This document shows, one piece after another, positions 21,443 to 23,711 of a DNA stretch of 64,000 bases. How positions within the stretch are numbered: the first letter of the stretch is position 1; each line of letters opens with the position of its first letter. The stretch lies in contig NZ_CP083608.1 in the NCBI RefSeq assembly GCF_020097135.1, forward strand, positions 806,001-870,000, written 5' to 3'. Position numbers and translations under genes: made by a program. This DNA comes from Macrococcus armenti (lineage in GTDB: Bacteria > Bacillota > Bacilli > Staphylococcales > Staphylococcaceae). Below the pieces are notes generated by a model. The model was not told the origin of the DNA. It saw only the letters and a list, made by a program, of their open reading frames with translations, and made no database searches.

Positions 21443-23029
21443 GTGAAACAATATAAAAAAATAGAAGACGGCAAAGGATCATTTATTGACCGTTTAATAC
21501 ATACAGAAGACTTTAAACCGTTCTATCATTATGTGCTGAATGAATCAGGATTCAAAGAGAGAAATGAGGTCGCTCGCAACGGTTTAGAAAGTCAGTTAGG
21601 AGATGTTATTCAGTCATATATTGGTGATGACATTTCAGATGCGCAGCAAAACAATATTGAAGCTTTAAAATCAGGGCATCAAGTTGTTGTTGGGGGTCAG
21701 CAGGCAGGCTTATTTGTAAGTCCGCTATATACCATTCATAAGATTATTTCAATTATCGTGATGGCGAAAGAGCAATCAATAAAACTTAATAAGCTAGTCA
21801 TTCCAGTGTTCTGGATAGCTGGTGAAGACCATGACTTTGATGAAGTTAATCATGCGAATGTATATGATGAAAACAGCATTATACATCGCGTGAAATATTA
21901 TTCAAAGCAGGAAGTAACCGATTCTGTTTCGAATGTTCAAATTGATCGAGATGCATATATGACTGCGCTTAATAAAATGTTTACACTGCTCGGTGAAACA
22001 GAACATACGAAAGTAATATATCAGAAGCTGCGCGATATTCCGGGTTACTGGACGGAACACTTTAAATCCATACTTCAGACGTTATTTAAATCACATGGAG
22101 TCTTATTTATTGATAGTCAGTATAAGCCGCTCCGTGCATTAGAGCGACATATATTAAAGTGGCAGTTTGAACATCATGAAGCAATAGATGCGGCTTTTCG
22201 TAATGGACAGAATGCATTTGAACAATTAACTTCAGAACGACAAATAATTACAGATACGAATGTACATTTATTTTTACAATATGATGGCATGCGTCAGCTG
22301 TTAAAGTTTGATGGTAACGAATATATATTGCCGAAATCAGGCGTTGCTTTAAGCAAGGAAGAAGTGCTTGCAATTATAAAACATGAACCAGAGCGTATAT
22401 CAAACAATGTCGTAACGCGTCCGTTAATGCAGGAAAGTGTATTTAATACTTTAGCATTTATCGGTGGCCCTTCAGAAATAAAATATTGGGGAGAATTAAC
22501 ACAAGTTTTTGAATACGCCCAAATAAAAATGCCGTTAGTAGTACCCCGTATGCGCATAACATATATGACGCAGGAGCTTGAGAAAATTATTACACGCTAC
22601 GACATCTCACTTGAAGGATTATTCGCAAACGGCATTGATGAATATGTTGATACATTTTTAAAAACGAAAGAAAACTATATGGTCGAACAGGAAATACGTG
22701 CGATAGAAACGCAACTTGAAGCGTCATATGAATCATTAATACAATCGGGTGATAGTGCTTTAGCACATATTGCAAAATCGAATGTAGCGCATCATAAAGT
22801 ACAGTTTGATTATATGCTTGAAGCATACCGTAAAGAAATAAAAAGAAAGTATACAACTGAGCTCAAACATTTTACAAAAATTAAAAACGAACTCAATCCA
22901 GATGGTCTGCAGGAACGTGTTATGCATCCGGTACAAATAATGAACCGATACGGCATCCATATATTTGATGATGTATTGAATGCGTTTGACCAATATCAAT
23001 ATGAACATATTATTCTATTAAGTAACTAA
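21443..23029 (+). CDS. bshC: Bacillithiol biosynthesis cysteine-adding enzyme BshC
   Basis: Adds cysteine to glucosaminyl-malate in the last step of bacillithiol synthesis, the low-molecular-weight thiol of Firmicutes. At 528 residues it is the normal length. Recognisable blocks are VVVGGQQAGLFVSPLYT with the nucleotide-binding-like HKI following, VFWIAGEDHDFDEVNH, and a long C-terminal coiled coil. The start is GTG with GTGAGGTG upstream. Its place next to mraZ is as in Bacillus. Confidence 0.95.
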   Translation: MKQYKKIEDGKGSFIDRLIHTEDFKPFYHYVLNESGFKERNEVARNGLESQLGDVIQSYIGDDISDAQQNNIEALKSGHQVVVGGQQAGLFVSPLYTIHKIISIIVMAKEQSIKLNKLVIPVFWIAGEDHDFDEVNHANVYDENSIIHRVKYYSKQEVTDSVSNVQIDRDAYMTALNKMFTLLGETEHTKVIYQKLRDIPGYWTEHFKSILQTLFKSHGVLFIDSQYKPLRALERHILKWQFEHHEAIDAAFRNGQNAFEQLTSERQIITDTNVHLFLQYDGMRQLLKFDGNEYILPKSGVALSKEEVLAIIKHEPERISNNVVTRPLMQESVFNTLAFIGGPSEIKYWGELTQVFEYAQIKMPLVVPRMRITYMTQELEKIITRYDISLEGLFANGIDEYVDTFLKTKENYMVEQEIRAIETQLEASYESLIQSGDSALAHIAKSNVAHHKVQFDYMLEAYRKEIKRKYTTELKHFTKIKNELNPDGLQERVMHPVQIMNRYGIHIFDDVLNAFDQYQYEHIILLSN

Positions 23030-23077: not shown

Positions 23078-23083
23078 TATCCA

Positions 23084-23145
23084 ATGTCACCACTTTATGC
23101 GCAATATTATCTATATTAATAAACATTCCCCCACATGTCACCACT
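23084..23145. repeat. 11-bp direct repeat upstream of mraZ, possible extra MraZ sites
   Basis: ATGTCACCACT occurs at 23084-23094 and 23135-23145, 51 bp apart. On the minus strand each copy begins AGTGGTGACAT. The second copy is followed on the minus strand by GTGGGGG, with the two GTGG tracts exactly 10 bp apart, the same pitch as the GTGG repeats at 23226-23249. Confidence 0.45.
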
Positions 23146-23217
23146 ATGTGAAAACATTGAAAATCTTGAATTCACTACTGTTTAAAAATACAAAATAAAA
23201 AGTTGTAAAAAGTTTTG

Positions 23218-23249
23218 TATAATTAGTGGAGGAAAGTGGGGTATTGTGG
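23218..23249 (+). promoter_or_regulatory. mraZ promoter -10 with MraZ-box operator
   Basis: A perfect -10 TATAAT (23218-23223) is followed by three GTGG repeats at 23226, 23236 and 23246, one DNA helical turn apart. MraZ of E. coli and Mycoplasma is known to bind short GTGG/TGGG-containing tandem repeats before its own gene. The repeats cover the expected transcription start, which suits autorepression. The -35 is weak and A-rich. Confidence 0.7.
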
Positions 23250-23279
23250 TAAATTATAGTTAAGGCGAGGTGAAACGGA

Positions 23280-23711
23280 ATGTTTATGGGTGAATTTCAG
23301 CATCAACTGGATGCAAAAGGACGAATGATTGTACCTGCTAAATTTCGCGAACAATTAACTGAACATTTCGTAATTACACGTGGCCTTGATAAATGTCTTT
23401 TCGGCTATACGCTGGATGAGTGGGCAATCATTGAGGAGAAATTAAAAGCATTACCACTCACAAAAAAAGACGCTAGAAAATTTATGCGTATGTTTTTCTC
23501 AGGTGCTGTTGAAGTTGAAGTTGATAAGCAAGGCCGAATTAATATTCCGAAACATTTAATGGAGTATGCGGGCTTATCGAAAGAAGCAACAGTTGTCGGT
23601 GTTTCGAGTCGCATTGAAATTTGGGATCGTGCACAGTGGCAGCAGTTTTATGAAGCAACAGAAGATGAATTTGAGACTATCGCTGAAGATTTAATTGATT
23701 TTGATTTATAG
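23280..23711 (+). CDS. mraZ: Transcriptional regulator MraZ
   Basis: AbrB-like DNA-binding protein that forms rings and controls the division and wall (dcw) operon, often acting on its own promoter. The 143 residues contain two swapped-hairpin AbrB repeats: [14 protein letters not shown] near the start and [14 protein letters not shown] around residue 82. It heads the mraZ-rsmH-ftsL-pbp1-mraY-murD-divIB run, with GAGGTG upstream and 9 nt to rsmH. Confidence 0.96.

Follow-up and report, generated by a model that had tools for sequence, protein, structure and literature searches.

The gap upstream of mraZ in Macrococcus armenti contains two elements built from GTGG boxes: a promoter-proximal array of three, which is the known MraZ operator in its ordinary form and is predicted to bind MraZ, and an inverted GTGG-N6-GTGG pair located 95 bp before the first operator box. 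On the strength of sequence comparisons, we favor the reading that the upstream pair of this locus belongs to a recurrent class of auxiliary MraZ sites rather than being a product of chance, although a fair amount of doubt attaches to that preference. MraZ, which regulates the division and cell-wall cluster, is conserved very widely, and its assembly into large rings has no obvious reason. The original prediction had proposed a second, opposite-facing MraZ site from the window (the whole 64,000-nucleotide chromosomal stretch analyzed here, G000:C1:806001-870000). That proposal finds no support among the relatives of the genome, but is backed by inverted pairs that recur in other lineages above the level of shuffled gaps, by the absence of direct pairs wherever these were sought, and by spacers that resemble those of operators.

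The MraZ protein encoded in the window shares 81–90% identity with those of eight congeners, and the named loci at this level of identity belong to Macrococcoides and Macrococcus. Homologues with solved structures are 1n0e, 9qlr, 9qlg and 9sx6. The features of the locus are collected in Table 1. A terminator search of the gap returns one element, compared with 0.1 in shuffled sequence. It corresponds to the hairpin over the bshC stop codon, which also gives a sub-threshold Rfam match to psRNA14 (36.8 bits against 60) and is probably a terminator and nothing more. An RNA element was considered and set aside: three Rfam matches fall below the gathering score, all of them over this hairpin, and the folds of the adjoining spacer have z values of −0.5 and −1.5. 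By eye, there is no good −35 element at 16–18 bp from the TATAAT sequence.

Table 1. Features of the bshC–mraZ region, in window coordinates.
Feature	Position	Strand	Basis or remark
bshC (bacillithiol biosynthesis), co-directional gene upstream of mraZ	21443..23029	+	ORF; Pfam PF10079 E 7.8e-98, PF24850 E 1.5e-26
Terminator-like hairpin over bshC stop codon	23024..23077	+	25-bp perfect arms, 4-nt loop
Extra spacer between bshC terminator and promoter	23078..23190		Gap-length comparison, 108 family genomes
AGTGGTGACAT copy 1, single GTGG	23084-23094	-	Sequence
Inverted GTGG-N6-GTGG pair, candidate second MraZ site	23131..23144	-	GTGG at 23144 and 23134, pitch 10
AGTGGTGACAT copy 2	23135-23145	-	Sequence; runs on into GTGGGGG
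-10 element TATAAT	23218-23223	+	Sequence; columns preceding box 1 conserved in the 108 family genomes
MraZ operator (predicted), three GTGG boxes, pitch 10, then TAAATTA	23226..23249	+	Boxes at 23226, 23236, 23246
mraZ, 143 aa	23280..23711	+	ORF, ATG at 23280; PF02381 E 3.7e-48, two stretches

The promoter-proximal array is arranged as the original prediction described it, and its assignment to the known MraZ-box architecture is strongly supported. Box 1 begins two bases 3′ of TATAAT. In the mraZ upstream regions of 108 Staphylococcaceae genomes (the family set), three boxes at pitch 10 precede mraZ without exception; all three read GTGG in 104, and the third is ATGG in the other four (G008–G011). 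The exact three-box pattern occurs once per genome in 103 of the family, twice in one and never in G008–G011. A wider set of 80 mraZ loci, 74 of them from other Bacilli outside the family, contains a run of three GTGG boxes within 200 bp of mraZ in every case (80/80, including 74/74 outside the family). The array is followed by TAAATT in all 108 family genomes, a figure to be read with the fact that TAAATT formed part of the search anchor, which no family genome failed; the next base is A in 103 of them (23250–23256 in the window).

Additional GTGG boxes flank the array in many loci. About two turns past box 3, at +41 from box 1, a further GTGG is present in 46 of the 74 loci outside the family (among L016–L089). 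A fourth GTGG lies in range in 97 of 161 genomes of the class (120 matches, compared with 22 for a reversed control), and in at least 71 of the 161 it is at +40 or +41, counting among the matches listed (108 of 120). This downstream GTGG is phased to the boxes and not to the start codon. Seven class genomes have a box at +30; five of these have another at +41, and the remaining two are G175, with a box at +42, and G153, whose +30 matches are a tandem repeat. None of the 12 family genomes in the class sample has a fourth GTGG at +40/+41; the family position at +41 is GAGG in 65 of 108, including the window (23267–23270). On the other side of the array, a same-strand GTGG approximately 21 bp (about two turns) 5′ of box 1 was seen by eye in L128, L129, L176 and L188, and is also present in 5 of the 74 loci outside the family.

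The upstream repeat likewise has the bases originally described, namely an 11-bp direct repeat whose second copy continues into GTGGGGG at pitch 10. The repeat of AGTGGTGACAT lengthens to 16 nt at 88%, and copy 1 has no second GTGG at pitch 10 beside it. The window contains three occurrences of GTGG-N6-GTGG, all in the bshC–mraZ gap; shuffled versions average 0.48, and three or more are seen in 3 of 100. When 23078–23195 is shuffled, 11 of 5000 trials give such a pair on one strand or the other and 27 of 5000 give an 11-mer direct repeat. These estimates are post hoc and concern overlapping features chosen by eye. The 2.2-Mb genome has 9 occurrences, versus 15 for a reversed-pattern control. 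The six sites beyond the mraZ gap all lie inside long open frames, which led us to reject an MraZ regulon built on two-box sites, and the inverted pair alone, out of the seven pairs of the genome that are not part of an operator, falls outside such frames.

With two boxes to the operator's three, the inverted pair ranks second among 127,942 window positions for operator likeness, at a profile score of −2.4 compared with 45.4 for the operator. A search by nhmmer recovers it at E 0.28 when given the family profile and at E 1.8 and 8.4 with two profiles built from closer relatives, another site outranking it in the search at 8.4. These weak scores and the post-hoc choice of the feature favor a chance likeness in a lineage-specific spacer, with the operator alone being functional, a possibility that we take seriously but do not prefer. 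The rarity of such pairs in the shuffled spacer argues the other way, as do the recurrence in other lineages in one orientation only and the operator-like bases between the boxes, both described below.

Comparison within the family favors the chance reading. At 250 bp, the mraZ gap of the window is the longest of the 108, whose median is 145 bp, and exceeds the 138 bp of its three closest relatives. Across the gaps of the 108 genomes (10,009 bp in total), the only GTGG-N6-GTGG upstream of the operator on either strand is that of the window. The comparison of the bshC–mraZ gap across the family that the original prediction had put forward thus finds the proximal boxes in 108/108 genomes and the upstream pair in 0/107 others, so that the pair does not show the family-wide conservation by which it was to be judged. 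It sits in a spacer found only in this genome, one strain of the species having been compared. The spacer has no match among plasmids or phages, and a mobile or foreign origin was rejected on that basis; within the genus, it has only short matches elsewhere. The best of these is an exact 21-bp match of 23079–23099 inside an SMC gene (Pfam SMC_hinge) of the congener G002 (E 4.6e-4 in that genome), which is perhaps a coincidence.

Outside the family, inverted pairs at pitch 10 are present in 9 of the 74 gaps (13,187 bp): in Virgibacillus (L020), Ornithinibacillus (L028), Allobacillus (L035, L051 and L053) and Enterococcus (L065, L069, L075 and L076). Shuffles of the same gaps yield a mean of 0.03 and a maximum of 1, and none of 300 rounds reaches nine. 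Pairs in the direct orientation, at any pitch from 5 to 27, are absent from all 182 gaps searched. Inverted pairs at other pitches occur at 7 (four loci), at 11, 14 and 21 (three each) and at 17 (one); those at 11, 14 and 21 come from the Allobacillus loci, which on reading bear extra boxes. A fifth Enterococcus locus (L087) has CCAC-N6-CCAA at the equivalent position. Minus-strand GTGG runs of two are found in 4 of the 80 loci.

The most extensive series comes from family f35, where an inverted pair lies 5′ of the three-box operator in 18 of 105 genomes, 175–188 bp before box 1, and where the direct-orientation control gives 0 of 105. The carriers are 17 of the 22 genomes of an Enterococcus-type genus (g145) and G466 of g147. 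Of the five g145 genomes that are not carriers, G543 differs from the pair by a single base, the pair is missing from a shorter gap in G534, G538 and G547, and G548 yielded no exact operator. The distance to box 1 in the 17 carriers is 188 bp in 13, 187 in three and 175 in one. The 13 intervals of equal length are 63–94% identical (median 73%). In g145, 18 genomes combine an exact operator with a long gap; the eight box letters are intact in 17 of these and altered at one position in the other, and the inter-box spacer takes 12 forms in the 17 carriers. Most g145 loci (L212–L228) also have a conserved block near TTGTAATATTTTTATGAGAA immediately 3′ of the inverted pair, before the operator.

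In a sample of 393 genomes of the class, an inverted pair 56–116 bp from box 1 is found once, in the window itself, and a pair 118–178 bp from box 1 is found in five (G460, three of f14 and one of f37), this last count having no direct-orientation control alongside. The inverted element is therefore rare but scattered across lineages. Its offsets from box 1 are −95, −120, −132, −173 to −177, −187/−188 and −202, and a single helical phase common to all sites, which we also considered, is not visible in them by eye.

The 6-mer separating the two inverted boxes was unconstrained in all searches and was scored against a profile of 63 distinct operator spacers. For 32 loci, it averages 3.58 when read on the minus strand, as opposed to −8.75 on the plus strand. 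Averaged by lineage over eight groups, the score is 3.22, compared with −3.68 for random 6-mers from the gaps, and none of 20,000 draws, which were unconditioned on flanking boxes, reaches 3.22. Five of the eight groups score at least 3.48; the lower values are 2.07 for the window, which 4.8% of random 6-mers attain, 0.78 for Ornithinibacillus and 0.05 for Allobacillus. In the genome of the window, the six pairs within coding frames range from −8.5 to 0.01. As judged by this profile, the spacers between inverted boxes resemble operator spacers, clearly so in the groups other than the window, Ornithinibacillus and Allobacillus.

Inverted boxes read as CCAC on the mraZ strand, and the recurrent pairs could instead have nothing to do with MraZ and represent the C-rich 3′ arms of hairpins that terminate the upstream gene. 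In 12 of 17 g145 loci (e.g. L212, L214, L217 and L219) and in the f37 locus L236, a predicted hairpin takes up at least four of the eight box bases, mostly of the second box, in its 3′ arm, and terminators could thus lie behind some of the recurrence. The overlap is nil in the window, L020, L028, L035 and L051, and amounts to 0 to 3 of the 8 bases in L225, L221 and the three f14 loci (0, 2 and 3 in the latter). Some hairpin loci, L216 among them, retain the first box even though it falls in the unpaired loop. The intact box letters of g145 across 12 spacer forms also speak against a terminator origin, as does the fact that terminators in the window's own family yield no pair. Terminators would account for part of the recurrence at most, and we regard them as an improbable explanation of the whole.

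Two further readings place the upstream boxes in a promoter. The pair is always on the minus strand, and in the window a promoter-like minus-strand match uses part of the repeat, as would be the case if the inverted boxes were the operator of an antisense promoter, positioned after a −10 element like the mraZ boxes. However, promoter-like matches number 2 where 2.3 are expected, and the upstream gene is co-directional in the loci with listed frames, which leaves the inverted pair, at 95–202 bp upstream, with no divergent gene to serve; such a promoter seems unlikely. The segment might also be a decayed inverted duplicate of the mraZ promoter, in which GGAATGTTTAT recurs inverted. Its local alignment score of 31 is matched by just 2 of 3166 window stretches, but 25 of 2000 shuffles reach the same score and the profile matches span only boxes 1 and 2, so we give this origin little credence.

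The favored arrangement, an operator assisted by an auxiliary inverted site, suggests the following model. The array at 23226–23249 would be the autoregulatory operator of the dcw cluster, its three GTGG boxes, spaced by one helical turn, being read by a ring-forming MraZ. The boxes are expected to cover the transcription start, placed near 23230, and MraZ bound there would block transcription. The inverted pair most likely serves MraZ as an additional, weaker site that points away from the operator, of a type that would have been gained or retained several times in Bacilli mraZ gaps, always with this polarity. It would probably raise MraZ occupancy at the locus through a second ring or through one assembly touching both arrays, and either of these may be its simplest use. 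MraZ binding, repression and contact between the two sites are all inferred here from sequence. More tentatively, and with considerable doubt, several Bacilli lineages including that of the window may possess a second, inverted operator 95–202 bp upstream, with MraZ rings bridging the two arrays into a looped, cooperative repression complex at the dcw promoter; the spacing between inverted site and operator varies among lineages. A literature search for an inverted MraZ site or looping returned nothing relevant, with subscription papers mostly outside its coverage, and so does not prove absence. A recurrent opposite-facing second site, at a near-fixed distance in the Enterococcus-type genus, would offer a testable reason for MraZ rings, and would imply that some mraZ operators extend beyond the promoter-proximal boxes.

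The operator stretch may also bear on a published DNA structure. The accessible part of PMC11796246 reports a G-quadruplex downstream of the S. aureus mraZ promoter, and the inverted repeat TTTATCTTAATGATAAA from that paper is found in the family locus L146 (G029), where the G-rich stretch before mraZ consists of the operator and the ribosome-binding site. The reported motif thus appears to coincide with the MraZ operator stretch, the correspondence being made through TTTATCTTAATGATAAA and not through the motif letters. That work, as far as its available main text goes, handles the motif as a DNA structure, and the terms ‘operator’ and ‘autoregul’ do not occur there. It is very improbable that the conserved G-rich repeats work as a G-quadruplex instead of as a protein operator: the 24-bp operator accommodates four GG runs with loops of 1–7 in 53 of 108 genomes of the family and in 20 of 74 loci outside it, and just three GG runs are present in 37 of the 182, yet the phased boxes hold in all 182. 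If the drug-target motif does correspond to the phased boxes, the published reporter data need to be re-read.

Known MraZ systems provide the closest comparison, here taken from those parts of the cited papers that were accessible. The Mollicutes operator is (AAAGTGKN3)3 (PMC5282649), and that of B. cenocepacia consists of four 7-nt repeats with 3-nt spacers, spanning the start site (PMC7761207). The latter study describes MraZ as an octameric ring and found binding to the promoter-proximal fragment only, which counts against a second site. MraZ is permissive in vitro, binding HsdC repeats with spacing off by 1 nt at comparable strength; in vivo, its overexpression left the HsdC-repeat operon unaffected (PMC5282649). 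In M. gallisepticum, MraZ overexpression went with more FtsZ (cited in PMC8475190), a poor fit to plain repression. The operator of the window shares with those of Mollicutes, E. coli and B. cenocepacia the GTG-core direct repeats, the 10-bp pitch and the position just after the −10 element. Unlike these operators as described in the available text, the window combines three strict GTGG boxes with an inverted two-box site upstream.
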